Shown here one piece after another: positions 1 to 19,590 of a stretch of DNA of 21,030 nucleotides. Under the pieces are notes generated by a model. That model ran no database searches and was not told where the DNA came from. It saw only the letters and a program-made list of their open reading frames with translations. The position numbers and the translations under genes are program-made. The DNA is from a virus: IMG/VR virus record IMGVR_UViG_3300009091_000692, positions 1 to 21,030 of that record; one strand, written 5' to 3'. The number at the start of each line of letters is the position of its first letter. Within the stretch, counting starts at the first letter, position 1.

Positions 1-1593
1 GGCCTGCTCACGAGCCGCGATGCCTTCGGTCTCTGGGAGGCGACGCCAGCGCAGCGAGCGGCATGCCGGGTGGTGGATGGGCTTCCCCTTGGCGAGCTCG
101 CCGACGATCCCGACGTCGTGGAGCTCCTGGGGGGCCCCGAGTCCTTGGCGGCCATCGAGCGGCATCGGGAGAATCGCGACACGCCCGGGTGCGGTCCGAA
201 GGAAGTCGCGTTCCTGGCCGCGATTCGAAGCGCCAAGACCATGCTGGCCTGTGCGGCCGCCGTCCGGATGACCCAAACCGTGGACGTGTCGGGCCTCAAG
301 CACGGCGAGATGCCGCGCGTCTCGGTCGTGAGCCTCAAGGTGGACGTCGCCGGCGCCGCCTACCGGATGCTGAAGGAGGCGATCCTCGCGTCCTCGGTTC
401 TGTCGGCCCTCGTCATCGGAACGCCAAAGGAGGACGCGATCCAGCTCCAGCACCCGAGTGGGCGGCCCATCGAGATCGCGGTGGTTGCTGGAGCCAGGGC
501 CGGCGCAGGCCTGGTCGCCCGGTGGAGTGCCGGCGTCATCTTCGACGAAGCGCCCCGCATGGTCGGGGCCGAGGACGGGGTCGTCAACCTAACGGACGCT
601 CGTAGCGCTGTTATCGGCCGGCTCTTGCCCGGCGCCCAGGCGCTCTACATCGGGAGCCCCTGGGCCCCGTTCGGTCCCGCTTACACCATGCACGAGGACC
701 ACTGGCGCGACCCGAAGCCAGAGGTCGTGGTGCTCAAGGGCACCGGGCCGATGCTCAACCCGACCTGGTGGACGCCCGAGCGTGCCGAGGCCCTGAAGAC
801 GGCTGATCCGGTCGCCTACCAGACCGACGTCCTAGCGAACTTCGCGGACCCCGAGTCGGGCATGTTCTGGGATGAGATGCTCAGAAACTGCACGCGCGAG
901 TCGCCGATCGAGATCGAGCCCCAATCGTTGCAGCACTACCAGGCCGCGATGGACCCGGCCACGCGCGGCAACTCGTGGACGCTTGGGGTCTGGACCTGCA
1001 CGGGCACCGAGGGGGCGCGCAAGAAGTTGCAGGTCGTGCTCGCCCGGCAGTGGACCGGCTCACGGCTCGCCCCCCTCGATTCCGAGCGGATCCTTCGCGA
1101 GATCGCGTCGATCTGCCACCGATACCGGATGTCGAGTTGCTGGACCGACCAGTGGTCCGTCGACGCCCTTAGAACGACGGCGCGTCGGTGCGGGATCGGG
1201 CTTGCCGAGGAGACCATGAGCGGTCCCCGCAAGGTCGAACTCGCGCAGCTCCTGAAGCTCCACTGCGAGTCGCGCGACCTCGACTTGCCGCCCATCCCGA
1301 TCCTGTCCGAGGACCTGAAGCGACTCCGCAAGCGCATCACCCAGGAGGGTATCCAGATCGTGCTGCCCCGCACCGGCGACGGTCGGCACTGCGACTATGC
1401 CTCCATGATGCTGCTGCTCACGGCTCATGAGCCGCGGGTGCCGGATGACCCGCCGATCACGGACGAGGAGTACCGGCGCACCGAACCACAACGGATCCGG
1501 GCTGCCGAAGCCCGAGCCGTCGACGAACGCAACCGCCAGCGATGGCAGCGCGGGGCCTACCAGATGATGCGCCGCGCCCTGCATCTGAGTTGA
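1..1593 (+). CDS. terL: Terminase large subunit, 5' end cut off by window
   Basis: This is the ATP-driven motor and nuclease that cuts phage DNA and pumps it into the procapsid through the portal. The frame is open from base 1. A GTG at 70 could serve as a start, but the codons before it (…FGLWEATPAQRAACRVVDG) read like the conserved N-terminus of large terminases, so I treat the gene as truncated by the window edge. Visible motifs: a divergent P-loop FLAAIRSAKT (bases 211-240), Walker B VIFDE (Asp codon 544, Glu 547), a coupling-motif-like YIGSPW near 645, and three acidic positions expected of the RNase H-like nuclease: Asp in AMDPA (952), Asp in WTDQW (1147) and Asp in HCDYA (1393). The C-terminus is Arg-rich. 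It lies directly upstream of head genes, as is usual. Sure of the family; the exact subgroup is not determined. Confidence 0.9.
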   Translation, partial: GLLTSRDAFGLWEATPAQRAACRVVDGLPLGELADDPDVVELLGGPESLAAIERHRENRDTPGCGPKEVAFLAAIRSAKTMLACAAAVRMTQTVDVSGLKHGEMPRVSVVSLKVDVAGAAYRMLKEAILASSVLSALVIGTPKEDAIQLQHPSGRPIEIAVVAGARAGAGLVARWSAGVIFDEAPRMVGAEDGVVNLTDARSAVIGRLLPGAQALYIGSPWAPFGPAYTMHEDHWRDPKPEVVVLKGTGPMLNPTWWTPERAEALKTADPVAYQTDVLANFADPESGMFWDEMLRNCTRESPIEIEPQSLQHYQAAMDPATRGNSWTLGVWTCTGTEGARKKLQVVLARQWTGSRLAPLDSERILREIASICHRYRMSSCWTDQWSVDALRTTARRCGIGLAEETMSGPRKVELAQLLKLHCESRDLDLPPIPILSEDLKRLRKRITQEGIQIVLPRTGDGRHCDYASMMLLLTAHEPRVPDDPPITDEEYRRTEPQRIRAAEARAVDERNRQRWQRGAYQMMRRALHLS

Positions 1594-1948: not shown

Positions 1949-2383
1949 ATGGGAACGCTCAAGGCCTATGCCGACAATGTCATTCTGTTGCTCGAGCCCG
2001 AGCCGACGAAGATCGGGAGTTTCTGGATAGCCCCCAAGCAGAACGTGCGTGGCTCGCGCACCGCACGCGTCCTGTCCTCGGGTCCCGGCTACCACCGTGA
2101 GCCGAGCTACAGCAACCCGCAGGGCGTCTTCATCGAAAACCAGGTGAAGCCCGGGGACCGGGTGATCGTGGACGCGCTGGCGGGCCAGAACTATCAACTG
2201 GACCTTTCTGTGCCGCGCCACAACAAGGACCAGGAGTTCAAGGATCTCTTGGGCGACAAGGGCGAATTCCGCATCGTGCGCGAGGCCGAGATCCTGGCGC
2301 TGATCGACGATGACGTGGTGGATGCGGAGACGGTTCCGATGACCAATGAAGTCACGCGGTTCGGTCCGCAGGCGAGGCCGTGA
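1949..2383 (+). CDS. GroES-like phage co-chaperonin
   Basis: Likely a Cpn10/GroES-family co-chaperonin that would cap host GroEL and help fold phage proteins. The 144-residue product follows the GroES pattern: DNVILLLEPEP for the first barrel strands, a loop with the hydrophobic trio FWI (residues 25-27) where GroES has its GroEL-binding IVL mobile loop, ARVLSSGPG, then VKPGDRVIVD, and the typical end FRIVREAEILALID. E. coli GroES has 97 residues. The extra length comes from an insertion before the last strands (about residues 80-108) and an acidic tail of about 20 residues. AGGTGA at 1940-1945 gives a good ribosome-binding site. The position between terminase and portal suggests a role in capsid folding, comparable in principle to T4 gp31, but this is inference. 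Confidence 0.8.
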   Translation: MGTLKAYADNVILLLEPEPTKIGSFWIAPKQNVRGSRTARVLSSGPGYHREPSYSNPQGVFIENQVKPGDRVIVDALAGQNYQLDLSVPRHNKDQEFKDLLGDKGEFRIVREAEILALIDDDVVDAETVPMTNEVTRFGPQARP

Positions 2384-2384
2384 G

Positions 2385-4283
2385 ATGCCCAATCTGAAAA
2401 CGCTACACGAGAAACCGTGGCACCGCCTTCCCGTCTCCGAGATGGGCGACGCGGTCCAGCGGATCATCGAGGGCTACAAGAAGGAGCAGGCGGGGCGACG
2501 CTCGGCCTACTCGCGCAACCTCGAGCTCTACGAGCAGATGCATCTGTCGGGCTACTCGGCGCATTCCTACTACGGGGCCAACACCGAGAAGCTCATGAGC
2601 TTCGAACGCGACCGGCTCGGCATCGTTCGAAGCGCCATCGATTCCGCGGTCGCCAACATCTTCGCGCCCCAGAAACCCAAGCCCCAATGGCAGACCCTGG
2701 GAGCCACCTGGGAAGTACGGCGCCGAGCGTACAAACTCGATCGGGTGTGCGAAGGGATCCTGAATCAACGCCAGGAACCGTTCTGCAACATGTGGGCGTT
2801 CATGATCGACACGATGTACGACACTGCCACGCAGGGAGCGGTCGCCATCAAGGTCATGTCGGATCGGGTGCGCAAGCGCATCGTCCACCGCAACATCCCG
2901 ACTCCCGACATCTTCGTTGATCCGTCGGCGGGGCGCTTGCCTCAGGATTGGTTCCAGGTCGAGCCCTGCGACCTCAGCGTTGCACAAGAACTCTTTCCCA
3001 AGCATGCCCAGAAGCTCGAGGGAGCCAAAGACTACGAGTGGTTCGGATCCGCGCGCCAGAGCAGTATCAGGGCCTCGCGGGAGATCGAGCTCGGATACGC
3101 GTGGCGACTGCCGACCGGGCCCGACAAGCCGGGGAAGTGGTGCGTCGTGGCCAACGGAACCGTCCTCGACTCAGGGGACTGGGTCGCGCCGGCGCCTCCG
3201 TTCGTCTTTGGCTACTGGCAACGCCATCGCGCCGGCATCTGGGGCAGTGGCCTCGCGTTCCTGATGGGGGCGCAGGCACAGAAAGCCGGGGAGCTCGACG
3301 AACGTCTGACGATCAGAGAGGAGATCGCGAGCGGAAAGTACATTTGGTACAGGCCAGGATCTATCAATCCTGACAGCCTAGCCATGAACGATCCAAAGAT
3401 GGCCGTCCCGGTGGAAGACGGGAAGGAATATCCCCAGGAGAGTCTCAGCCTACCCTTCGCGCCCATGGAGCTTGACTTTCGCAACGTGAAGGTGCGGGAC
3501 ACCTGGGACTCGGTCGGCATCAGCCAAGTGAGTGCGGCGGCGCGTCGGGAACCAGGCATCGAGTCGGGGGTCGCCCAGATGACGCTCAACGACACGAAGG
3601 ACGGGCGTCATCTGCCCGAGGCACAGCGCTACGAGCAGATGTATGTCGACTTCGCGCACCAATGGGTGTGGAGACTGCGCGAATTGGCCGCCAACGATCC
3701 CGACATGGTCGTTCAGTATCCCAACGGCTCGCTGCTACGCGAGGTCAAGTGGGCGGACGTCGACGTCGAGGACGAGAAGGCCGCTGTTACGGTGGCCCCG
3801 GCTTCCAGCCTGCCGCATGACCCGTGGGGCCGCCAGCAGATGGTTCAGGCCCTGCGCGAGGGCAACATCATCTCGCAGGCCACGGCGAAGACGCTCATCG
3901 GGTGGCCGGACCTCGACAGCGAGCTGCAAACCGACAACGCCGAGACCCAGTACATCGACGCGCTGATCGAGCTCTACACGAATGCCGAAGAGGCGTCGTG
4001 GGACGCCACTCAGTACCAGGCGCCCGAGGGGTTCATCACGAACAAACTCGGCGCGCTGACTCGATTCGGCAGCGCGTGGTTCCGCATCAAGACCGACCAG
4101 ATCTCGCTGCCGCCCGAGGAGAAAGCGAAGGCGGAGTTCTGCTGCGGTTTGCTCGTACGCTACATCCAAGAACTCAGTGCCCTGTTGCCACCCGTCGAAC
4201 CGCTCAAGGGTGGGGCCACGGCGCCTGACATGCTCGCCCAGACGGCGCCCCAGGTTGCTGCCGCCGGAGCCGGAGGAATGTGA
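2385..4283 (+). CDS. Portal (head-tail connector) protein
   Basis: Portal proteins form the dodecameric ring at one capsid vertex through which terminase pumps DNA and to which the tail attaches. I chose ATG 2385, one base after the preceding stop, giving 632 residues starting MPNLKTLHEKPW. An in-frame ATG at 2346 would add 13 Arg-rich residues read through the co-chaperonin gene. Family-like features: an N-terminal helix with YSRNLELYEQMHLSGY, the SFERDRLGIVRSAIDSAVANI helix (about 72-92), and the block NIPTPDIFVDP … LPQDWFQVEP (about 168-195), which resembles podovirus portals where the strand motif ends in 'DP' before a 'P.....V' stretch. A long helical part near 415-440 (VDFAHQWVWRLREL) and an Ala/Gly-rich C-terminus follow. 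Position between terminase and scaffold supports the call. Confidence 0.85.
   Translation: MPNLKTLHEKPWHRLPVSEMGDAVQRIIEGYKKEQAGRRSAYSRNLELYEQMHLSGYSAHSYYGANTEKLMSFERDRLGIVRSAIDSAVANIFAPQKPKPQWQTLGATWEVRRRAYKLDRVCEGILNQRQEPFCNMWAFMIDTMYDTATQGAVAIKVMSDRVRKRIVHRNIPTPDIFVDPSAGRLPQDWFQVEPCDLSVAQELFPKHAQKLEGAKDYEWFGSARQSSIRASREIELGYAWRLPTGPDKPGKWCVVANGTVLDSGDWVAPAPPFVFGYWQRHRAGIWGSGLAFLMGAQAQKAGELDERLTIREEIASGKYIWYRPGSINPDSLAMNDPKMAVPVEDGKEYPQESLSLPFAPMELDFRNVKVRDTWDSVGISQVSAAARREPGIESGVAQMTLNDTKDGRHLPEAQRYEQMYVDFAHQWVWRLRELAANDPDMVVQYPNGSLLREVKWADVDVEDEKAAVTVAPASSLPHDPWGRQQMVQALREGNIISQATAKTLIGWPDLDSELQTDNAETQYIDALIELYTNAEEASWDATQYQAPEGFITNKLGALTRFGSAWFRIKTDQISLPPEEKAKAEFCCGLLVRYIQELSALLPPVEPLKGGATAPDMLAQTAPQVAAAGAGGM
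4272..4277 (+). promoter_or_regulatory. Strong Shine-Dalgarno that fixes the scaffold start
   Basis: GGAGGA ends 5 bases before ATG 4283. This favours ATG 4283, which overlaps the portal stop as TGATG, over the in-frame GTG at 4280, which would be only 2 bases away. Confidence 0.7.
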
Positions 4284-5452
4284 TGGAAGAGCCTATCGTC
4301 CAGACCCAGGCTGAGCCGCCGCTTTCTGCGCCCAAGGACGCTCCGGTGCCGCCGGAGACGCGGGGCCGCAAAGAGGAAACATTCGCGGAGAAGTGGGCAA
4401 GACACGGGGGCAACCTCGATGACCTCGGCGGAAACAAGAAGGAGGCCGCGCCTGCCGAGGCGTCACCCGAGACGCCCGAGGACAAACCAACCGAACCCAC
4501 GAAGGCTCCAGGCGCGCCCGCCGAAGAGACTCTGGAGCCCGCTGCGGCGACAAATGCGAAGCTCGCTCAGATCAAGGAGCTCGCCAAGGAACTCGGACTC
4601 GCATTCGACGGCGGCCGTGTCATGTCGGGGGAGCGGCAACAGTTCCGGGAGGCTCAACGCAAGCACAAGGCGCACATCGAGCAGCAGCGGGCCGAGGCCG
4701 AACGCGAAATCCAGGAGCACCGCCAGGGGCTGGCGCAGGAACTCGAGACGGCTACCAAGCTCTTCAAGGCACGCGATGACGGCGACTGGAACGGACTCGC
4801 CCAGGTCCTGGGCTTCGAGGACTACAACGCGATGCAGCGCGAGGTGGCGACCCGGGTCAGCGATCCGAACTATCGCAGGATGCGCGAGCTCGAAGAATGG
4901 AGGGCCAAGCAAGAGCAGGCCGAACAGGAACGCCAGCAGCGCGAGGAGCAGACCCGGATCGAGCAAGAGCAGAAGAAGGCGGTCGACGACTACATGGTCC
5001 AGTTGGCCGACCACATGAGCCAATCCGACCACCGCATTCTCAAGGCACTTGGGAGGCAACGGTTCTTTCTGAACGCGGTGCACGCCATCCAGCGGGACCA
5101 GTTCGACGGCTCGAGCACCGTCACGCCGGAGCAGGCGCTCACGATGACGGCCCCCGGGTCGACCGTCCCACTCGATCAGGAGCTTCGGTCGATCTACGGC
5201 GTGCTGCACCAGGCCTATGGCGAAGAGGCTGCCGCGGCGCCGACTCCGTCACCTTCCCAGATCACGAAGAAAGACAAGGACGCGGCTGACGCGAGCACGG
5301 TAAAGAGCGCGCCCGTGCCGCCGTCGGGCACCACCGAAGCGTCGGCACCCCGCAAAGCGCCGACCGATCGGCGCGAGTTCGCCAAATGGATGCAGCAGAG
5401 GCTCGAGGATGAGGAGCTACGGGAACGACTGGCCCAGAGGTCAATCCCCTAG
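4283..5452 (+). CDS. Capsid scaffolding protein (probable)
   Basis: Probable internal scaffold that guides capsid protein into a procapsid and later leaves. The call rests on position between portal and capsid genes and on composition. The 389 residues are highly charged and largely helical. The N-terminal part is Pro/Glu/Ala-rich and disordered. Two coiled-coil stretches rich in Glu, Gln, Arg and Lys lie at about 114-165 (GERQQFREAQRKHKAHIEQQ) and 200-240 (EWRAKQEQAEQERQQREEQT). A Pro/Ser/Thr linker near 315-360 leads to a short charged C-terminal helix pair (REFAKWMQQRLEDEELRERL) of the sort that binds coat protein in other scaffolds. No protease motif is evident. The start overlaps the portal stop (TGATG), suggesting coupled translation. 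The primary sequence of scaffolds is poorly conserved, so the call is by context. Confidence 0.75.
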   Translation: MEEPIVQTQAEPPLSAPKDAPVPPETRGRKEETFAEKWARHGGNLDDLGGNKKEAAPAEASPETPEDKPTEPTKAPGAPAEETLEPAAATNAKLAQIKELAKELGLAFDGGRVMSGERQQFREAQRKHKAHIEQQRAEAEREIQEHRQGLAQELETATKLFKARDDGDWNGLAQVLGFEDYNAMQREVATRVSDPNYRRMRELEEWRAKQEQAEQERQQREEQTRIEQEQKKAVDDYMVQLADHMSQSDHRILKALGRQRFFLNAVHAIQRDQFDGSSTVTPEQALTMTAPGSTVPLDQELRSIYGVLHQAYGEEAAAAPTPSPSQITKKDKDAADASTVKSAPVPPSGTTEASAPRKAPTDRREFAKWMQQRLEDEELRERLAQRSIP

Positions 5453-5568: not shown

Positions 5569-5631
5569 GCCAGCAATCCGCACTAGATGTGGGTGCTGGA
5601 GCCCCGAGCGACCTCAGACCTGGGGACGTTC

Positions 5632-6879
5632 ATGGGTTCCACAACCACAACGTATGCAGCGCTCCTGAAAGAGCGCTATCTGGATTCTGATGTAGTCGAA
5701 AAACTGACCTATCCCCAAAACCCGCTGCTCGGGAGACTCCAGAAGCGCGGGGACACGGGGATGGTGGGCTCGAGTCTGCCGGTCCCGATTCTGCTCGGTC
5801 TGCCGCAGGGCGTGTCGAGTAGCTTCACGGAGGCGCAGACCCACGCGACCAACATCGTCGCCGATGAGTGGATCATCACGGCCGGCGACTACTACGGGGT
5901 CGTCAAGATTGGCCAAAAGGTGCTCGAGGCCAGCCGCACCAACCGCGGCGCGTTCCTCGAGAACAAGACGACCGAGATCGATGGTCTGTACGAGCAAGCC
6001 GGCGAAGCTCTGTCGATCTACACGTGGGGCAACGGTGGCAACGCACTCGGCAGGATCGCGACGCTGTCGACCAACGACATCGTCCTGACGCAACCGAGTG
6101 ACTCGGCCAACTTCGAGCTGAACATGGAGGTCATGGCATGCGCCGACGATGGGTCGGTGACGACGCATGCAGTGAGGACCGGTCACAGCACTGTTGACGT
6201 CATCAATCGAGCGCTTGGGGCCCTCACGATCACGGCCTCCGACATCACGAGCCTTGCCGCCGGAGACTACCTGTTCCGCAACGGTGACTTCTACGGCGAT
6301 CAGGGGTCAATCGTCATCAAGGGCGTTCAGTGCTTCGTCACCGCGACCGACAGTCCGATGGCGCTCTGGGGCATCGCGGCGGCGACCCGCGACAACGATC
6401 CGCAGCGCTACGCGGGATGCCGCGTCGATCCGGCGAAGCTCTACGGGAAGAGCATCGAACAGCGCATCAAGCTCCTGATGGCGCAGATGACCGGCACCTT
6501 CAAAGCGAAGGCACCGACCTCCGGATACATGCACCCCGAGGACTTCCTGCTGCTCGAGACCGAGCTCCAGGCGCGTGGCGTTCGGGCGCTCGAGGATCCG
6601 GACACGAAGTTCGGATACACGAAGATCGATTGCATGACGGCGGCCGGGCGGCTGCCGATCTACACGGATCGCCATTGCCCGCGCGGCACGTTCTTCGCGT
6701 TCCGCGATGAGAACTGGTGGATCAGCAGCATGGGCGAGCTTCTGCACCCGCAGAACTCGGACGGCAACGAGATCCTCCGTATGTACAACAGCACCGACCT
6801 GGAGTTCCGCCTCCTCAGCTTCCCACTTCTCGCGTGCAACGCTCCGAAGAACTCCGGCCGTGTGACCCTCGACTCCTAG
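5632..6879 (+). CDS. Major capsid protein (probable)
   Basis: Probable main shell protein, by position after portal and scaffold and by its N-terminus. I chose ATG 5632 (415 residues, MGSTTTTYAALLKERY…) because GGGGAC lies just upstream and the protein begins with the 'YAALLKERY…VVEKLTYPQNPLL' block typical of capsid proteins in this kind of phage. An in-frame ATG at 5587 has no ribosome-binding site and directly follows a TAG. The central part (about 100-135, GDYYGVVKIGQKVLEASRTN then ENKTTEIDGLYEQAGEALS) reads like the long helix region of an HK97-type fold. A Thr/Asp-rich beta part and a helix with SIEQRIKLLMAQMTGTFK follow, and the C-terminal part contains RLPIYTDRHCPRGTFFAFRD. Family assignment below this level is not possible by eye. 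Confidence 0.8.
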   Translation: MGSTTTTYAALLKERYLDSDVVEKLTYPQNPLLGRLQKRGDTGMVGSSLPVPILLGLPQGVSSSFTEAQTHATNIVADEWIITAGDYYGVVKIGQKVLEASRTNRGAFLENKTTEIDGLYEQAGEALSIYTWGNGGNALGRIATLSTNDIVLTQPSDSANFELNMEVMACADDGSVTTHAVRTGHSTVDVINRALGALTITASDITSLAAGDYLFRNGDFYGDQGSIVIKGVQCFVTATDSPMALWGIAAATRDNDPQRYAGCRVDPAKLYGKSIEQRIKLLMAQMTGTFKAKAPTSGYMHPEDFLLLETELQARGVRALEDPDTKFGYTKIDCMTAAGRLPIYTDRHCPRGTFFAFRDENWWISSMGELLHPQNSDGNEILRMYNSTDLEFRLLSFPLLACNAPKNSGRVTLDS

Positions 6880-7620: not shown

Positions 7621-8352
7621 GTGTCCAGGAACGTGACGCTCCTCGAGCTCCGCGAGAGCATCGTCTACCAGACGGACAACGCGGGCGCGACGGCGCGTCA
7701 CGCTCCGACACTCGTCAACCGCCTGATCAACCAGAGCCTGCAGAGGTTCCGTGAGCGGTTGAGCGACGAAGGCGCGACGCACTTCCTGGCATCGACCACC
7801 GGCACGCTCGGTACCGGTGCCACCAGTCCGTACCCGGGCTATGTGCTGGACCTGACGGCGGTCGCGCCGTCGATCGTCAGGATCTACGGCATCGACGTCA
7901 CGGTCAGCGGAGAGGTGAGCACGCTGCAGCATGTGCCCTTCAACGAGCGCAACTCGTACGGCGGCGGAGTCTCATCGGGGATCCCGGTGGCCTGGGCGCC
8001 CTTCAATACCGCAAAGGCCATGATCCTGCCGCCGGCTGGAAGCGCCTACGCTTACTGTGTCTGGTATCTCCCTGTCCTGTCGGACCTGAGCGCGGACTCG
8101 TCGACCTGGGACGGGGTCTCGGGTTGGGAGGACTTCGTCAAGTGGGACGTGGCCTGCCAACTGATTGTCCGCGACCAGTACCCGACCGCCTACCAGATGG
8201 CGGTCAGCTACAAAAAGGAGGTGTGGGACGACATCTTGAGAGCTGCCACCAAGGTGACGTTGGCCGGTGGTGCCACCATCGGACGCGACTCGTTCGGCGA
8301 GCGCCTGGCGTCACTACCGAGCAAACGCCTTCCGCCACCGCCATGGGGATAG
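7621..8352 (+). CDS. Head-tail adaptor-like protein
   Basis: Probable connector protein that sits between the portal and the tail. The start is GTG 7621, supported by GAGGTGA (7611-7617). The 243-residue product opens with TLLELRESIVYQTDN and HAPTLVNRLINQSLQRFRERL, matching the helical start of phage adaptor proteins ('LINQSL..L…'). A beta-rich middle with conserved-looking PVAWAPFNTAKAMILPPAG and YCVWYLPVLSDLS follows, then a helix WEDFVKWDVACQLIVRDQYP (about 169-188), the usual place for the 'AA..L..KD' stretch of adaptors. The C-terminus is Pro-rich (KRLPPPPWG). Position upstream of the nozzle-like gene fits. P22 gp4 or T7 gp11-type function is inferred from order, not from alignment. Confidence 0.6.
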   Translation: MSRNVTLLELRESIVYQTDNAGATARHAPTLVNRLINQSLQRFRERLSDEGATHFLASTTGTLGTGATSPYPGYVLDLTAVAPSIVRIYGIDVTVSGEVSTLQHVPFNERNSYGGGVSSGIPVAWAPFNTAKAMILPPAGSAYAYCVWYLPVLSDLSADSSTWDGVSGWEDFVKWDVACQLIVRDQYPTAYQMAVSYKKEVWDDILRAATKVTLAGGATIGRDSFGERLASLPSKRLPPPPWG

Positions 8353-11992: not shown

Positions 11993-14488
11993 ATGGCAAG
12001 CGACACGTTCAAATACGACGCCAATGGCAATGTGATCGGCCGATACAACGGAAACACCGGCGAGTTTGAATCCGGAGGCTTTCTCAACGGTCAGTGGGCA
12101 CCGACGAGCGGTGCAGCGACGCTCGGAGAGAAACTGCAAAATGAGCCCGGAACTTCACTCCGTGCAACCGAGGTGTTGCCGCCGGCTGCTACCGATGACC
12201 CCAACTTCCTAGCTACTCCAGAAGGTCAGCAGTGGGCCAATAGCCAGCAGGGTCTACAACCAGGAGGGGTCATCATTGGAACGGATGCGAGCCAGCGCCC
12301 CGTGCTCGCTGAGAACCTCAAGCCACGATCGCAGGTGCAGGCGCCCGTAGTCCTGGGTGGTGAGGCGAGCTACGTACCGAGAACGGCCGAGGAACTCAGG
12401 GCGATAGGAGCCGGAGGAGCGCTGCAGGCGGGCGTCTTGTCCGACAGGGTCGGCGAGATCACGCAGCACACGACTTCGAACATGGAGGCGGCCGGCGTCA
12501 CCGGAGGAAGCACGCTCCAGGGGATCGGCCAAAGTGCTATCGACGCCGGGACTGCTCGAGCCGATCAACTCGCCGCTACCGGAAACACGTTGGGTTCCGG
12601 CATCGCGACCAGCGGGGCCGTGCGAGGTGGAGCCCTTCAGGGCATCGGTCAGCAGGCCATCGCCGGCGGGACCTCACGCGCGAACCAGGTGGCTGCAGAA
12701 GGGATCAGGCTCGGGGGTGAGACGACGGCGGCCGGAGTCACACGCGGCGATGCGCTCGGAACCTTGGGCAACGAAGCCGTCGCGGCGGGCACCGGGGGCG
12801 CTGCGGCGCTCCGCACCGCCGCTCAACAGACCGGGGCCCAGATAGCGGCCCAGGGCTCCGCCCTAGGGCAAGGTGTGACCAATGTCGGGCAAGGAGCAGC
12901 CGCCAACATCGGCAATCAGGCGGCGCGAGCACAGGAAGCGCTGGGCCAGTACGCGACGCAGCAAGCCGATCGCATAGCTCAGGCCGGCACCACCGGGGCC
13001 GGCGAACTCGCGGGTCTCAGCGCAGCGGAGCGGGCAGCGGCCACCGGCAACCTGGCCCAGGCCACGGGATCGGCCACGAACCTGGCGGGCCTCGAACAGG
13101 TCCAGGGTCCCTCAGCAGCCCAGGCACAACTCAGGGCCGGCACCGAGGAGGCCATGGCCAACAACCTCGCCATGGCGCGATCGGGGCGAGGATGGGGCGG
13201 ATCTGCCTCCGCTCTGTCGGCGGCCAGTGCTGCCAACGCCCTCCAGATGCAGAGGGCGTCGACGGCCGCCGCGCAACTCAGGGCCCAGGAGAATGCGGCC
13301 TGGCGCACAAGGCAAGCCCAGAACCTGGGAGCGGCCGCTGGCATCCAAGCGGGCATCGGCACCGGACAAGCAGAACGCGGGCTGAGCGCGGCCACGGGCG
13401 CGGCCAACACAAGGCTGGCGGGGGCCACATCAGCCGGCACCCTGGGCACCTCGGGCATGGGGACTGCCCTGGACCTCGGCCTCACTGGGGTCACGAAGGC
13501 GGGTGAGCTCGCCACGGGAGCCACGGCGACAGGCGCCAAACTGGGAGCAGAAACGGCCATCGCGGGCGGTCAGACCGCACTGGGTGGGATGGAGGCGGCC
13601 GCCAACATCGGCAACCAAGCCTATGCCACCGGCGGCGCCCTGCGCGGGACAGGAGCGAGCCTGGCGACGGGAGCGACCGAAGCGGGCTCCAAGTTGGCAC
13701 TCGGGGCGCAAGAGTCCTCGGCGGCTCTCGGGAACCAGGCCTATGGCACTGGCGGCGCCCTGTACGGAGAGGGCGCGAACCTCGCGACGCGAGCCGCTGA
13801 AGCCGGGGCCGGCGTGACGCTCGAAGGCCAGAAGGCTGCCGGTGCTCTCGGGAACCAGGCCTATGGCACTGGCGGCGCCCTGTATGGAGAGGGAACGGGC
13901 CAAATGGTGGGCGCGGTCGAGGGGGCCGGTCAGATCGCCCTGTCAGGCGAGGATCTTCGGCAGAAGGCGCTGACCCAGGGAACGACCTTCGATTTTCTGG
14001 GCAACCAAGCAGCAACCGACATCTACAGCGAACAGGCCGCTCTGGAGAGCGAAGCACTCAATCGAATCCTCCAGGAGCGCGCGATCAAGGCTGGTCTCGA
14101 ATCGAGCCTGATTCAGGCGCGAGCCCAGAAGGAAGGCGCGCTGTTTGGTGCCGCTGGAGCATTGGGCGCCGGACTCCTGATGTCAGATGTTCGTGCGAAG
14201 ACCAACATCAAACCGGAGAAAGCACTGGACGTCTTCGAGAAGGCTCCGGCCTACAGCTACCACTACAAGGATCCAAACGCTCCGGGCATGGCCCCGGGTC
14301 GTCACTTTGGCCCCATGGCTCAGGACCTGGAGAGGACGCCACTCGGAGCCAGCGCGGTGAAGACGGACCCGAACGGCATGAAGATGGTCGACACGGGCCG
14401 ACTCACGATGATCAACTCCGCGGCGCTCTCGAACATGGCGCGGGAGCTCAAGAGACTGAAGTCGCGGGTTGAAAAGAGGGCAACCTGA
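11993..14488 (+). CDS. Ala/Gly-rich repeat virion protein with C-terminal Peptidase S74 chaperone domain
   Basis: An 831-residue protein; GGAGAGG at 11977-11983 precedes the ATG. Residues 1-130 are polar. About 165-660 are Ala/Gly-rich and include two sets of exact 40-residue repeats (174-293 and 540-659). The middle block GPSAAQAQLRAGTEEAMANN (from 372) and SGRGWGGSASALSAASAANA is helical. After a hydrophobic stretch (GALFGAAGALGAGLLM), residues 731-831 form an S74 domain: SDVRAKTNIKP with Ser731 and Lys736, FEKAPAYSYHYKD, RHFGPMAQDL, a LTMINSAALSNMARELKRLK end. In endosialidase-type proteins this domain helps trimer folding and then cuts itself off before the Ser, using Ser and the Lys five residues later. 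Both are kept here, so cleavage between 730 and 731 is predicted. The role of the released body, tail fibre or internal protein, is uncertain. Confidence 0.75.
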   Translation: MASDTFKYDANGNVIGRYNGNTGEFESGGFLNGQWAPTSGAATLGEKLQNEPGTSLRATEVLPPAATDDPNFLATPEGQQWANSQQGLQPGGVIIGTDASQRPVLAENLKPRSQVQAPVVLGGEASYVPRTAEELRAIGAGGALQAGVLSDRVGEITQHTTSNMEAAGVTGGSTLQGIGQSAIDAGTARADQLAATGNTLGSGIATSGAVRGGALQGIGQQAIAGGTSRANQVAAEGIRLGGETTAAGVTRGDALGTLGNEAVAAGTGGAAALRTAAQQTGAQIAAQGSALGQGVTNVGQGAAANIGNQAARAQEALGQYATQQADRIAQAGTTGAGELAGLSAAERAAATGNLAQATGSATNLAGLEQVQGPSAAQAQLRAGTEEAMANNLAMARSGRGWGGSASALSAASAANALQMQRASTAAAQLRAQENAAWRTRQAQNLGAAAGIQAGIGTGQAERGLSAATGAANTRLAGATSAGTLGTSGMGTALDLGLTGVTKAGELATGATATGAKLGAETAIAGGQTALGGMEAAANIGNQAYATGGALRGTGASLATGATEAGSKLALGAQESSAALGNQAYGTGGALYGEGANLATRAAEAGAGVTLEGQKAAGALGNQAYGTGGALYGEGTGQMVGAVEGAGQIALSGEDLRQKALTQGTTFDFLGNQAATDIYSEQAALESEALNRILQERAIKAGLESSLIQARAQKEGALFGAAGALGAGLLMSDVRAKTNIKPEKALDVFEKAPAYSYHYKDPNAPGMAPGRHFGPMAQDLERTPLGASAVKTDPNGMKMVDTGRLTMINSAALSNMARELKRLKSRVEKRAT
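12512..12871 (+). repeat. Three 120-base (40-residue) tandem repeats, upstream block
   Basis: Copies begin at 12512, 12632 and 12752 with TLQGIGQSAIDAGT, ALQGIGQQAIAGGT and ALGTLGNEAVAAGT. The first two agree over most of their length (RADQLAATG / RANQVAAEG, ending RGG / RGD) and the third is more diverged. The sequence just before 12512 ends AAGVTGGS, like the end of copy two (AAGVTRGD), suggesting a degraded earlier copy. Confidence 0.75.
13610..13969 (+). repeat. Three 120-base (40-residue) tandem repeats, downstream block
   Basis: Copies begin at 13610, 13730 and 13850 with GNQAYATGGALRGTG, GNQAYGTGGALYGEG and GNQAYGTGGALYGEG. Copies two and three are nearly identical in DNA for 50 bases (13724-13773 against 13844-13893, one difference), while the rest has diverged. 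This points to recent duplication or gene conversion of that part. Confidence 0.8.
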
Positions 14489-16371
14489 TGGCCTATGGTG
14501 ACCTCATCGGAGCCGAACCTATCGACCTCGGCAACGGCGTCCCGGCCTACAACTTCGTGAGCCGCGGTGGTCAGAAGACCATGCTGTGGGGTCCCGAGGC
14601 CGAACAGCTCAAGGCGCGGCTCGATGCGTCTGAATCCATGATGCCGCAGAAGACGGCGCAGCTGGACGTTTCAGGGGAAACGGCTCCGGATGTATTCGGG
14701 ACCGGGATACCAGCCGCAACTCCTCCGCCCCCGCGCATGGGTCAGACCGAAATGCTTACGGGGCCTCCACCGAAGCAGGCGGGAGTCAGAGAGGTTGTTT
14801 CCGGGAATGGTGAGACCGTTACGCTCCCGGTCCAATCGAACGGTGATGTCGTGAGACCCCCGGGACAATCGCAGCAACAGCAGGGTCCCGTACGCATTGG
14901 GTACAACAGCCGCCTGGTCCCCAACCCCGAGGGGGGGCCGCCCATCATGCAAACGTACCATCCGGGCTCATCGGGTGTTTCGCAAGAAGACCTGCAACGC
15001 AAACGCGCTCAGACGGTCATGATGCCCTCAGGGACACGGACAACGGTCGAGGGTGCGGTGCCTCCAGATCCGGAGTTCGTCAAGGGTATGGAGGAGATGA
15101 CGTGGGAGCGGCGGCGCCAGATACGCGAAGCCACCGACAACGCCATCGCAATGAACGAAGAGCAGCGCAAGTTGGTTCAAGCGCAGTACGAGAGGGACAC
15201 GGCGGCGGTCCAGGAACAGGAACGACTCCGGCAGCTCACCGAGCAGCGAGTCCAGCAGTTCGAACAGACCAAGAACAAGTTGCGAGCGGACGCCAACTCG
15301 GCCAAGGTGAATCCGCGTCGGCTATTCTCGGGTGAACTGGGCACGCTCAGAACCATTGGCGCCGCCATCGCGTCAGCTATGGGGCAGTATGGTGCCGCGA
15401 GGGCGCACACTCCCAACACGGCGCAACAGATCATCGATGGCGCCATCGACAGAGACATCCAGGCGCAGCAAATCGAGATACAGACCAAGAAGGAAGCGGC
15501 CGACAACGCGCTATCTGAGTACCTCCGCGAGGGATTGAGCTTGGATCAGGCAAAGCTGGTGCTCAAGCAGAACATGCGCGACCAGGCAACATCACAACGG
15601 CGTCTGATCGACTTGACGAACGCGCCTAAAGAGATCTGGGCGTGGAATGAGCAGATGGATCTCGCGGAACGGCAGAATCAGTTGATGTTCGAGGAGGATT
15701 ATCGCAGGAAGTCGCTAGGTAGAACCACCGAGGAGATTGCGGCAACGGCGCGGTATCCGCAGGCAGGAAGCCCTGGAGGTTGGAGGGAGTCGACTCCGAC
15801 AGAGGCCAAGGGTGCCATGGACGCAACGAAGGCGATGCGCGTCGCTTACAACGAGATGAAGGGGGAGGGGGGCGGCGGCGGCGGCAACCCGACCGAGCGC
15901 AACCTGCTGTCAGCTATCGGGGAATTCGAGCAGATCAACAGTAGGGTCGCCGCGAAGGATCCCAACGCAAGAGTCCCCGGGTACGAGCAGCAAGGTCTGC
16001 CCAGTAGAATCAAATGGAAGTTGGATGATTGGTGGGGCGGTGAGGGAACCCACATGTCTGGGCTAACGCCCGAAGAGCAAAAAGACTATGAGTTGTACAT
16101 GCAATCTAGAAACTCTGCTCTGTTCTCCTTGTCACAGGGACGCGGGCAAGGTGTTGTCCGTGAAAGCGAACTCAGGCTTTCGATGCAGGAGTTGCAATCG
16201 GCCAAGAACTGGGGCTCGGTCCAGCGCATCCGGCAGCACCAGACGGACGCGATCAGGGCGCGGCTGCAGGCTGTGCAATCCGGCAGGATGACAGCCGATG
16301 AATCCATCAATACCTACCGACTAACCCTAGGAACGGGCACGGATACCGAAGCGGAGACGGAATCGCAGTAA
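14488..16371 (+). CDS. Probable internal/ejection-type virion protein, 627 residues
   Basis: I do not recognise a named domain. ATG 14488 overlaps the S74 gene stop (TGATG), with AGAGGG upstream. The order is: a short globular N-terminus (AEPIDLGNGVPAYNFVSRGG), a long Pro/Gln-rich disordered part (about 50-180), a charged coiled coil (about 205-275, EEQRKLVQAQYERDTAAVQE), then NPRRLFSGELGTLRTIGAAI, ASAMGQYGAARAHTPNTAQQ and IIDGAIDRDIQAQQIEIQTK (about 275-335). I have seen this last pattern in other predicted phage virion proteins of GC-rich bacteria, but cannot name it. Residue run GEGGGGGG near 459 separates a helical C-terminal part. The helical, low-cysteine make-up and position beside the next large protein fit an internal core or ejection protein. 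This is inference. Confidence 0.6.
   Translation: MAYGDLIGAEPIDLGNGVPAYNFVSRGGQKTMLWGPEAEQLKARLDASESMMPQKTAQLDVSGETAPDVFGTGIPAATPPPPRMGQTEMLTGPPPKQAGVREVVSGNGETVTLPVQSNGDVVRPPGQSQQQQGPVRIGYNSRLVPNPEGGPPIMQTYHPGSSGVSQEDLQRKRAQTVMMPSGTRTTVEGAVPPDPEFVKGMEEMTWERRRQIREATDNAIAMNEEQRKLVQAQYERDTAAVQEQERLRQLTEQRVQQFEQTKNKLRADANSAKVNPRRLFSGELGTLRTIGAAIASAMGQYGAARAHTPNTAQQIIDGAIDRDIQAQQIEIQTKKEAADNALSEYLREGLSLDQAKLVLKQNMRDQATSQRRLIDLTNAPKEIWAWNEQMDLAERQNQLMFEEDYRRKSLGRTTEEIAATARYPQAGSPGGWRESTPTEAKGAMDATKAMRVAYNEMKGEGGGGGGNPTERNLLSAIGEFEQINSRVAAKDPNARVPGYEQQGLPSRIKWKLDDWWGGEGTHMSGLTPEEQKDYELYMQSRNSALFSLSQGRGQGVVRESELRLSMQELQSAKNWGSVQRIRQHQTDAIRARLQAVQSGRMTADESINTYRLTLGTGTDTEAETESQ
15861..15884 (+). repeat. 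G-rich low-complexity tract encoding a glycine linker
   Basis: Five Gs, an A, six Gs and then four CGG units encode GEGGGGGG between two helical parts of the 627-residue protein. The tract could form a G-quadruplex or slip during replication, so length variation among relatives would not surprise. It may simply be a flexible linker. Confidence 0.6.
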
Positions 16372-16374
16372 CCC

Positions 16375-19300
16375 ATGGCCGGCAACTTCCCCGAATTCAA
16401 GAACATGTTCCCCGGCGGACCCGCCGAAGGGACGTTTCCGACGTTCGGCAACATGTTCCCTGGTGCGGCGCCACAGCCGGCAGGCATCGGTGTGCCTCCC
16501 CAACTGACTCCGCTACAGGAGACGATCCGCCGTTCCGAGGAGGAGGACAAGAAACGGGAAGCAGACCTGAAGCGCATGGAGGCGGAGCACGGCGCTTTCG
16601 AAACCTACGCCACCCAGATCTGGAAGGGCGGACTCTCGGCAATCACAGCTCCAGGAGCCGTGACAGGAGCTGCCGCCGAGACAGCCGGTGGGGTCACAGG
16701 GTGGAAGGGCTTGGAGGAGTTCGGGCGCGACCTGGGCGAGTCCGCGAACGGGCAAGCGGCGATGGAAGCGCTGGCCTTCCTCTTTGGTGGAGGAGGCAAG
16801 GAGGGACTCGCCAAGGTCCGCGAGATCCAGCAGACCGTGGAGGAGCAGCAGAAGGTATGGCCGACCCTCTCTACGATCGCGAACCTGGCCGGCCAGGCTA
16901 CTGTTGCACTCGCTACTGGCACGGCGGCTGGTCTGGTTCCTGGTGCTACCAAGGCGGCGGTGGTTGGCACCGAGGCCGCGGTTGGCGCCTTCGAAGGCGG
17001 ATCGGCCGGGATGCAAGCCGCCTACGAGCAGGCGGCGCCCCTGTCCGATGTCTATACCTCGGGTCTCGTGGGCGGAATCCTGGGAGGGGGCCTGGGAGCA
17101 ACCGGCGGTGCCATCTTTGGTAGACCCGCTCGTCAGGTTGTCGGCAAAGACGCCGCCCAGGCCTTCACCAAGGTCGAGGAACTCGAAGCCATGCAGGGCA
17201 TGCGCGCGGCCGGCATCCGGGCATCGCAGGCCAAGCGTCTGCATGGCCGCAAGGGAGCCGAGGCATCGCGCCAACTCGACATCAGGACGGGGCTCGACGC
17301 CACCAACTACGTGCTCAAGACCGGTGAGCACGCCGGGGAAAACATCTTCTGGAAGCCCGGGGGACTGATCGGTCGCAAGCCGCAGGAGATCCCGATTCTT
17401 CTCGAGCAGGGCAAGGAAGAACTCGGCGCCGAACTCGGGCAAATGCGGCAAGTCCTGGATCAGCAGATCCAGCAGGCCCAGACGCCGTATGCGCGCGCAC
17501 TGGCGGAACGCCAGGCTCTCATCGCCAACCAGGCCAAGGTGGCTGCTGCGGCGCGCCAGGCGCGGGGGCCCGCTCAGTTCGTAGATGAGTCTGGAGCGAC
17601 CAGCGAGAACATCCGGCCCGTGCGGTTCTACCGTGTGCAACCCAAGGGCTTGGGAGTACTCGGACACAAGTCGAAACTCGGAGCAGAACCGGTTGAAGGC
17701 GTGTTCGCCTACGAAAACCCCGAAACCATGTTCGGGACCTACTCATGGAAGTACATCTCTAAGCGGCTGCCAGATTACGAAATGGTCGAGATCGATGGTC
17801 GACTGATTGATCGGCCGCCGGACTCCGAAGGTGTGGTCGTTGAACCGTCGCGCGTAGTACGCCGAACCCCAATCAGCGAATTCGCAAAGAACCTGGAGAG
17901 CTTCCGTTCGACCTACCAAGGTAAGTCACCCAACGAGATCAACGCCATTGCTCGCGGCGAGATACCGTACCAGGCTCAGAAAGCCATCGAGCCCGTCAAG
18001 TTCGAGATTGGCTTCGACGAGAGAGGCCAGCAGCAGATCTTCCTTCGCGACGGGCGCCATCGGCTGGATGCCGCCAAGGAAGCAGGCGCAGACGAGATCC
18101 TGGCTACCGTGGAGCGGGTCGACAAGGACGGTAATGTTCTGTCGAGCCAGACGCGGCCGGTCTCGTTGAAGCCAAGGACTGCACCGCCGATAGCGAAGTT
18201 CGAGCCTCCCCCTGTTCCGCAGCCAACGGATGACATGCCGTCGGCGGTGCAGTTGCTTCGGCGCATCAATGATGAGGTCGTGGAGCCCTTGAAGGCGGAT
18301 GCGAAAATGGTGCCGGCAGCTCGTTCGCAACTGACCGAGATCAAGGCAAACCTGGGTTGGCTAAGTCAGAGGGCCGCGGCGGAACAACGGGGCGTCGGCG
18401 CTCCGCTGACGTTTGGGGAGCTCGAGACATTCCGTCGAAACATCGCCAAGTACACGCCGGTCTACCCACAGATCTCCGTTGCGGGCTTGGCTCCGCCCAC
18501 GCCTCCGTCGCAGATGCTGATGAAAAAGGTCGAGCGCATGGTCATGGATCATCTCGACGAGAAGGCCGAGATTGCGCTCAGCCGGCAGGGGTTGGACACG
18601 CTTGGCTACCGTCGACTACGCCGTCAGTGGAGCTCACTCAAGAACATATCGGATACAGCCGCGAACGAGGCGAACTTCCGGCGCTGGAATCAGCGCCTTT
18701 CCCTGAGGGATATCGGCGTCGGTGCGGGCGCCACGTTGATGTTGGCGCACGGCAACGTGGCGGGATTCATGGTTGGGGTCGGCGCCACCATGGCCTCGAA
18801 GTTCTGGAGAGAGCGAGGGGACGGAATCGTTGCGCTCTGGGCGCACAGGGCGAGCCACACGCTGACCAGCGAGATGAGCGGGCGCATGGGCGCGGTTGTG
18901 CCACTGCTGCGCGGTGCAGGCGCCACAGCCAAGCGCACGCTGCCGAGAACCCTGGGTGCATGGGCAGCACCGGACCAGAAGAGCTACACGGAGCGACGCA
19001 AGAAACTCGACGACTTCATATCGCGACCCGACCCCACCGTTCTCAGCCAGCAACTCGAGGCCAACCCGGACATACCGGACGACCTGGCATTGCCGTTGGG
19101 CCAATCGGTCTACCAGAAGATCACGAAGTTGGCTCGAGACTTTCCGAAGCCGCGGAGCACTGGAATCAAGGCGAGCGGCGCCCTCTCGAGTGAGGAACTC
19201 AGAGTGGCGAACGCGATGTGGGATGCCACGGTCGACCCGTTTGGCTTGTTCTCGGCGTTCCAGAACGGACATGTCGACTACACCCGGGTCCAGTACACCT

Positions 19301-19590
19301 GGCAGCAATGGCCTGGGTTGAAACAGGCCGCACAGGCTGCCATGATCGATGCTCTCCATCAGCAGTTGAACGACACCGAACGTTCGGCGATCCCCGACTC
19401 GATCCTGACCCAACTCGACTTTCTACTCGGGTTCGACGGAACGTTGCAGACGACTGTGGGGCGTGGCTTCTCGGCACAAATGAGCGCTGCGGCACAGAAG
19501 CCAGAAGAGCCGCCCATGTCGGGACCCCCTCTCAAGCTACCAATGAGACCAAGCCTCACAGAACGAATCGCAGGACAACGACAAGGATAG
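16375..19590 (+). CDS. Large multi-domain internal-type virion protein with ParB-like motif and hydrophobic segments
   Basis: A 1071-residue protein, three bases after the previous stop. Visible parts: a doubled FPxFxNMFPG motif (residues 5-14 and 21-30); a charged helix (44-85); hydrophobic Ala/Gly segments at about 85-109, 164-209 and 230-249 (GLVGGILGGGLGATGGAIFG, a glycine-zipper pattern); helices to about 395; an unassigned alpha/beta module (about 413-505); a ParB/sulfiredoxin-like stretch (about 530-600) with IFLRDGRHRLDAAKEAG, Asp559 to Arg563 being the DGRHR core; helices (620-695); another hydrophobic glycine-rich segment (777-811); and a helical C-terminal part (934-1045, DPFGLFSAFQNGHVDYTRVQ). 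Such a mosaic fits the 'polyvalent' proteins phages package and deliver with DNA, and the hydrophobic segments fit membrane passage. Both are inferences. No lysozyme or polymerase motif is seen. Confidence 0.65.
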   Translation: MAGNFPEFKNMFPGGPAEGTFPTFGNMFPGAAPQPAGIGVPPQLTPLQETIRRSEEEDKKREADLKRMEAEHGAFETYATQIWKGGLSAITAPGAVTGAAAETAGGVTGWKGLEEFGRDLGESANGQAAMEALAFLFGGGGKEGLAKVREIQQTVEEQQKVWPTLSTIANLAGQATVALATGTAAGLVPGATKAAVVGTEAAVGAFEGGSAGMQAAYEQAAPLSDVYTSGLVGGILGGGLGATGGAIFGRPARQVVGKDAAQAFTKVEELEAMQGMRAAGIRASQAKRLHGRKGAEASRQLDIRTGLDATNYVLKTGEHAGENIFWKPGGLIGRKPQEIPILLEQGKEELGAELGQMRQVLDQQIQQAQTPYARALAERQALIANQAKVAAAARQARGPAQFVDESGATSENIRPVRFYRVQPKGLGVLGHKSKLGAEPVEGVFAYENPETMFGTYSWKYISKRLPDYEMVEIDGRLIDRPPDSEGVVVEPSRVVRRTPISEFAKNLESFRSTYQGKSPNEINAIARGEIPYQAQKAIEPVKFEIGFDERGQQQIFLRDGRHRLDAAKEAGADEILATVERVDKDGNVLSSQTRPVSLKPRTAPPIAKFEPPPVPQPTDDMPSAVQLLRRINDEVVEPLKADAKMVPAARSQLTEIKANLGWLSQRAAAEQRGVGAPLTFGELETFRRNIAKYTPVYPQISVAGLAPPTPPSQMLMKKVERMVMDHLDEKAEIALSRQGLDTLGYRRLRRQWSSLKNISDTAANEANFRRWNQRLSLRDIGVGAGATLMLAHGNVAGFMVGVGATMASKFWRERGDGIVALWAHRASHTLTSEMSGRMGAVVPLLRGAGATAKRTLPRTLGAWAAPDQKSYTERRKKLDDFISRPDPTVLSQQLEANPDIPDDLALPLGQSVYQKITKLARDFPKPRSTGIKASGALSSEELRVANAMWDATVDPFGLFSAFQNGHVDYTRVQYTWQQWPGLKQAAQAAMIDALHQQLNDTERSAIPDSILTQLDFLLGFDGTLQTTVGRGFSAQMSAAAQKPEEPPMSGPPLKLPMRPSLTERIAGQRQG
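16387..16464 (+). repeat. Duplicated N-terminal FPxFxNMFPG motif
   Basis: FPEFKNMFPG (codons 16387-16416) and FPTFGNMFPG (16435-16464) are 16 residues apart. Third bases differ between the copies while seven of ten residues agree, so selection on the peptide is more likely than a fresh DNA duplication. Confidence 0.65.

Follow-up and report, generated by a model that had tools for sequence, protein, structure and literature searches.

A ParB/sulfiredoxin-like module located inside a 1071-residue protein of a 21-kb IMG/VR virus fragment (the window, meaning the whole stretch analysed) appears to be an optional cassette in a family of probable phage ejection proteins. The protein that carries it is probably the large ejection protein of a podovirus, occupying the position of T7 gp16, and the domain itself very probably adopts the ParB/sulfiredoxin (ParB/Srx) fold. 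On balance, we favour the interpretation that it is an accessory effector that binds NTP or phosphate and is delivered to the host together with the genome. The features are listed in Table 1.

The plus strand of the window carries a podovirus-like head and tail cluster. The gene for the 1071-residue protein follows those for the tail nozzle and two internal-type proteins, which is the position of gp16 in T7, and is itself followed by two small genes. The complete order of nozzle, two further proteins, ejection protein and portal is present in contig L031 (992, 387, 688 and 815 aa, counting from the nozzle), and the nozzle-like and portal-like proteins of the window match the same contigs as the carrier family does. 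A sequence match between the 627-aa neighbour and its counterparts in the relatives was not found. The 831-aa protein is Ala/Gly-rich, with 120-bp tandem repeats inside its gene (13608-13894); its Peptidase_S74 domain is a chaperone domain, and it occupies a position where the relatives encode an internal-type protein.

Table 1. Features of the window, with the residues (aa) of the 1071-residue protein where these apply.
Feature	Nucleotides	Residues	Strand	Basis
Terminase-like ORF	1-1593		+	Sequence reading only; profile search without significant match
Cpn10-like protein	1949-2383		+	E 4e-4
Portal-like protein, 645 aa	2346-4283		+	tblastn to L012 contig, 7e-17; also L033, L027, L031, L032
Scaffold-like protein	4280-5452		+	Position, composition
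Major head protein	5587-6879		+	phrog_14242, 4e-10
SU10-type adaptor	7621-8352		+	
Tail nozzle-like protein, 1062 aa	8802-11990		+	tblastn to L031 (E 9e-21), L024 (7e-14), L008 (8e-13); weak phrog_511 match
831-aa protein, Peptidase_S74 domain	11993-14488			
627-aa protein, gp15-position neighbour	14488-16371		+	Counterparts at this position in L031 (688 aa) and L012 (543 aa)
1071-aa probable large ejection-type (gp16-position) protein, ParB-like domain inside	16375-19590		+	ORF; C-terminal homology; gene order
Gly/Ala-rich hydrophobic N-terminal segment	16852-17142	160-256	+	Full-profile HHalign block, colinear with family N-part; weak
YRVQPKG domain, second putative cassette	17626-17889	418-505	+	37% identity to 2175-aa Rctr197k protein, E 6e-6
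ParB/sulfiredoxin-like domain	17875-18174	about 501-600	+	PHROG ParB matches; tblastn/blastp to L005 MuF protein
Beta-beta-alpha-beta-beta core	17995-18165	541-597	+	AlphaFold2, 12-row alignment; pLDDT block means about 90-95 over most
DGRHR	18049-18063	559-563	+	GxxR P-motif; single ParB/sulfiredoxin core of the protein
C-terminal hydrophobic Gly-zipper segment	18736-18792	788-806	+	Hydropathy scan
C-terminal family region	18937-19491	855-1039	+	HHalign, 173 columns, 20% identity

The C-terminus of the 1071-residue protein aligns to the family represented by L008, L015, L016 and L012 with an HHalign score of 48.9, compared with 13.8 ± 2.6 (maximum 26.2) for 200 shuffles. In the full-length alignment the N-terminal, ParB core and C-terminal blocks occur in the same order in the window protein and the family, although the N-terminal part, when tested separately with a truncated profile, scored no better than shuffles (24.6 against a shuffle maximum of 25.8). 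A sequence-only reading of this DNA had described the carrier as an internal-type protein, and the C-terminal alignment, the block order, the nozzle and portal homology and the gene order all bear this out. It had also placed the motif between hydrophobic glycine-zipper segments. Gly/Ala-rich stretches are indeed present on both sides, the hydrophobic 19-mers peaking at residues 179, 231 and 788 with moderate, membrane-type hydropathy (1.17-1.41), but they do not adjoin the domain. As judged from its C-terminus and gene order, the protein is a diverged member of this family (class (i) below), from a podovirus group encountered here only in metagenomes.

Searches among 50,697 phage records brought up hardly any relatives for the window proteins that were tried, and the INPHARED search returned only the virus Rctr197k. 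Pattern and tblastn searches of IMG/VR found no direct relatives of the whole 1071-residue protein, its two-domain region, the portal or the major capsid protein, and searches of GTDB genomes found none of the two-domain region or the YRVQPKG alignment. Matches also arose in Bordetella phage PY223 and in a plasmid from Streptomyces; these were rejected as spurious, since they coincide with genes annotated as something else or lie antisense to such a gene.

At the motif the protein reads IEPVKFEIGFDERGQQQIFL, then RDGRHRLDAAKEAGADEILA. The DGRHR lies within 17960-18180, where a ParB/sulfiredoxin-like motif had been noted earlier. It might be argued that it arose by chance in a stretch linking helical regions, and the lack of matches in Pfam and NCBIfam, together with its absence from all four homologues found independently of the motif, would be in keeping with this. 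We consider it very improbable. The number of DGRHR expected from the composition of the protein is 0.0002, and the broad ParB P-motif, [DEN]G[HERKQ][HRY]R..A, is found at a single place when all six frames of the window are read, whereas 10 of 2000 shuffled versions of the protein contain it. The isolated 110-aa region matches PHROG profiles, the best being phrog_26063 (E 9e-5), which like phrog_22327 (0.002) has no named function; the ParB partition families phrog_1033 (9e-4), phrog_6218 (0.024) and phrog_3264 (0.025) are also matched. The confident ParB/Srx-like model and the recurrence of the motif in unrelated virion proteins, both described below, point the same way.

The isolated domain has no match in Pfam or NCBIfam even at E 10 (with HMMER filters applied), nor to the Pfam ddrB-ParB profile at E ≤ 10, and is therefore regarded as a diverged member of the superfamily. 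Traits of partition ParB proteins, namely a curated ParB family or an HTH DNA-binding domain, are absent from the domain and from the whole protein in Pfam and NCBIfam, and no ParA-like gene or nuclease partner was recognised among the Pfam- and PHROG-scanned proteins of the window, which is a genome fragment. The sulfiredoxin motif is GGCHR, and its Cys is catalytic. DGRHR has no Cys at this place, so a role in peroxiredoxin repair is unlikely. In the superfamily as a whole the GxxR P-motif contacts the nucleotide phosphates (PMC12704722).

The first AlphaFold run, on a single sequence, had a mean pLDDT of 43 and was usable only for about residues 540-600, for which sulfiredoxin chains were among the highest-probability PDB matches. 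A second model was generated with AlphaFold2 from an alignment of 12 motif-bearing sequences, taken from the window and the fetched loci. Every cassette-bearing relative was found through the motif, and its invariance in this alignment is therefore circular. The model has an alpha+beta fold with a phosphate loop between strand and helix. The top 12 Foldseek matches in the PDB are all sulfiredoxin, with probabilities up to 1.00, TM of 0.36-0.43 and E of about 0.01 (0.011), values at which the matches to sulfiredoxin/KorB are supportive more than decisive. The N-terminal half of the domain (residues 485-540), corresponding to ParB Box I, the nucleotide base site, is modelled with low confidence. 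Searched against the sequences of solved structures, the alignment profile matches SbnI (5e-4), sulfiredoxin (0.15), a ParB nuclease (0.52) and a chromosome-partitioning ParB (0.76). The E-values are modest, and the weight of the evidence lies in the agreement of profiles, solved sequences and model. The fold proposed by the sequence-only reading is upheld by the PHROG profiles, the SbnI match, the AlphaFold core and the Foldseek sulfiredoxin matches.

A DNA-pattern scan for a hydrophobic residue followed by RDGRHRLxA yielded 17 viral contigs. Three of these (L007, L014, L021) look like chance matches outside real genes and were rejected; L010 and L020, which encode short ParB-like ORFs, and L019, which encodes another kind of protein, are not counted as carriers. 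The real motif-bearing proteins fall into three classes. Class (i) (L008, L012, L015, L016 and L023) consists of proteins of 928-1331 aa with a Gly/Ala-rich N-terminal part. Class (ii) contains the large internal virion proteins L006 and L011, the latter (1277 aa) with no family. The L006 protein combines phrog_6651, an internal virion protein (4e-48), with ParB (7e-7), and its gene follows those for a nozzle-type tail protein (phrog_376) and internal-type proteins. Class (iii) consists of the MuF minor head proteins L005, which came from a protein scan rather than the DNA pattern, and L013/L018/L022; in L005 and L013 Phage_Mu_F and ParB are present in one protein. The window domain matches the L005 protein over 91 aa (34%, by tblastn/blastp). 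In the MuF genes of L005 (5254-6918) and L013 (3056-4402, minus strand), the DGRHR ParB-like domain is internal, upstream of the MuF domain.

The L006-type protein matches 66 isolated-phage records, and in the 25 listed the match begins at residue 490 or later; the ParB part of L006 alone has no isolated-phage match in INPHARED. Similarly, all 25 listed isolated-phage matches to the L013 MuF protein start downstream of its ParB part.

The module, about 96 aa in the class (i) family, is present in some members and absent from others. A scan with the C-terminal region, which did not use the motif, although its seeds were motif-bearing members, identified four further full-length members (L026, L030, L031 and L032), in none of which is DGRHR found. 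L016 is 71% and 63% identical to L031 and L032 over 815 aa, the alignment being interrupted once, by a clean gap of some 110 aa that is the ParB module. In the same way, the module is present in L008 and L015 but absent from L026, which is 57-58% identical to them. Its position also differs: in L012 it is at residues 942-1037, adjoining the C-terminal region, as against 314-456 elsewhere. In L030 (1-3903), a relative of the L012 ejection protein, a different and unrelated sequence occupies the site of the cassette.

Among the members, the module is 59-78% identical whereas the carrier flanks, leaving aside the L008/L015 pair, are mostly 22-40% identical. Divergence at third codon positions is about the same in module and carrier, but at first and second positions the module is far more conserved, which reflects strong purifying selection on the module rather than recent exchange. 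This stronger conservation argues that the module is functional, and together with the clean seam it points to an optional cassette and not a chance motif. Loss of the DGRHR core from most homologues, the outcome that the earlier reading had set against itself, is half borne out, in that the domain is missing from all four full-length homologues identified independently of the motif; that reading was largely right, but the optional nature of the domain was not visible to it. For the window domain itself, the score against the other cassettes with the motif masked (15.1) falls within the range of shuffles (10.7 ± 2.1, maximum 17.3), so that its sequence homology to them rests on the motif region. 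Shared descent is nevertheless likely on the basis of fold, motif and position in the carrier, the sequence being too diverged for proof.

Upstream of the ParB domain is another module, named here YRVQPKG. The pattern RVQPKG...VFAY...EG..V.P.R..RRTP is conserved between two unrelated viruses, the window virus and Rctr197k, and the domain has no family match in Pfam, PHROG, NCBIfam or the PDB. Its appearance led us to consider an ADP-ribosyltransferase, but no profile supports this. The position upstream of ParB, and its occurrence in the Rctr197k protein, suggests that the slot in the window protein holds two modules. The Rctr197k protein is encoded by a 2175-aa ORF adjoining the terminase (L002 2943-9470; 46139-52666 of the record), with no CDS annotation. 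Besides the YRVQPKG module it has a GNAT acetyltransferase domain; inspection by eye suggests more enzyme-like parts, and the whole reads as a polyvalent-type protein. Polyvalent proteins combine at least two effector domains; in the window protein the ParB-like and YRVQPKG domains would be the candidates.

That ParB domains occur in virion-associated phage proteins is already known. The DdrB-like ParB domains of polyvalent proteins, for which an NTP-regulated DNase activity has been proposed, are likewise ParB/Srx domains within large late-gene proteins thought to be packaged and injected (PMC5512222). They share with the window domain a conserved active-site arginine, and the likeness to polyvalent-protein domains drawn in the earlier reading is supported. 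However, the window domain lacks a Pfam match, its carrier is an ejection protein with a family of its own, and neither an MPTase nor a lysozyme nor any further polyvalent domain was recognised in that carrier. In position, size and hydrophobic segments the window protein resembles T7 gp16-type proteins (internal virion protein D, phrog_6651); L006 is a fusion of phrog_6651 to a ParB domain, while the window protein has no phrog_6651 match. MuF head proteins are also virion proteins with an exchangeable effector domain (PMC5512222, PMC5576092), and those of L005 and L013 carry the DGRHR domain, but the window carrier is not MuF and its cassette is internal and not C-terminal. The Tox-ParB domains of polymorphic toxins have the ParB fold and a DGHHR motif and act as effectors, but belong to secreted bacterial toxins with immunity genes (PMC3482391), none of which is seen in the window. 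Kaljevic et al. (2025; PMC12704722), who used PF02195 to survey ParB-fold fusions in phages, both isolates and gut phages, describe the fold as a portable NTP-binding module, as may be the case here; the window domain escapes both Pfam and INPHARED, and the main text of the survey contains neither the word 'MuF' nor 'virion'. ParB is not mentioned in a review of ejection proteins (PMC8954989). Such a cleanly optional cassette within ejection proteins at the gp16 position is thus missing from the review and, as far as its text shows, from the survey.

On the basis of these observations, we infer the following sequence of events. The 1071-residue protein would be packaged in the head, exit with the genome and insert into the envelope. 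The cassette, lying between membrane-active N- and C-terminal regions, would be presented inside the host and fold there, use DGRHR to bind a nucleotide or phosphodiester, and act once, on host DNA, incoming DNA or a host factor. Delivery to the host is favoured because the carriers are thought to leave the head with the DNA. By analogy with the DdrB-type domains, the likeliest single activity would be nucleotide-regulated nicking or binding of DNA, though for nicking in particular we would not put the chances high. ParB folds bind CTP, ATP or GTP with a specificity that is not predictable from sequence, and GxxR mutants serve as negative controls (PMC12704722).

The same fold could instead serve the ejectosome, gripping the incoming DNA or, while the genome enters, exploiting host NTP as signal or ratchet. 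The domain sits inside a gp16-position protein, the C-terminal part of gp16 is believed to engage DNA within the cytoplasm (PMC8954989), and ParB clamps bind DNA under NTP control (PMC12704722). This is nevertheless unlikely: the close relatives L031, L032 and L026 evidently do without the cassette, which speaks against a central part in ejection, and MuF proteins, a different structural class, contain the motif-bearing domain too. Slightly less likely still is a kinase or phosphotransferase like SbnI or SerK, acting on a small molecule or protein, which would reset host metabolism or modify a defence protein. SbnI, a bifunctional transcriptional regulator and O-phospho-L-serine synthase, is the best PDB sequence match, and with SerK and sulfiredoxin it shares with the window domain a phosphate loop of the G-x-[HR]-R type. 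However, the similarity to SbnI is confined to the fold core, no substrate is indicated, and the window lacks a serine-kinase context. An accessory effector delivered with the genome remains our preferred reading.

More tentatively, podovirus ejection proteins may have an effector slot, like MuF proteins and polymorphic toxins, in which ParB/Srx, YRVQPKG and other domains are exchanged. If so, the phage group of the window would possess a virion-delivered arsenal, overlooked so far because the domain escapes the Pfam ParB model and isolated phages lack the carriers. Early effectors in gp16-type proteins, beyond cell-wall hydrolases, are hard to test because variation among ejection proteins is usually diffuse. 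Here there are natural pairs, L016 with the module and L031 and L032 without it, 63-71% identical elsewhere, and the contribution of the module can therefore be isolated. The findings also extend the ParB NTP-binding fold to ejection and MuF proteins; what this fold does apart from segregating DNA is under active investigation.

It is worth adding that a Cpn10/GroES-like gene lies near the portal and scaffold genes both in the window (1949-2383, E 4e-4) and in L031 (12173-12898, 8e-7). It is possibly a phage co-chaperonin for capsid assembly common to this phage group.
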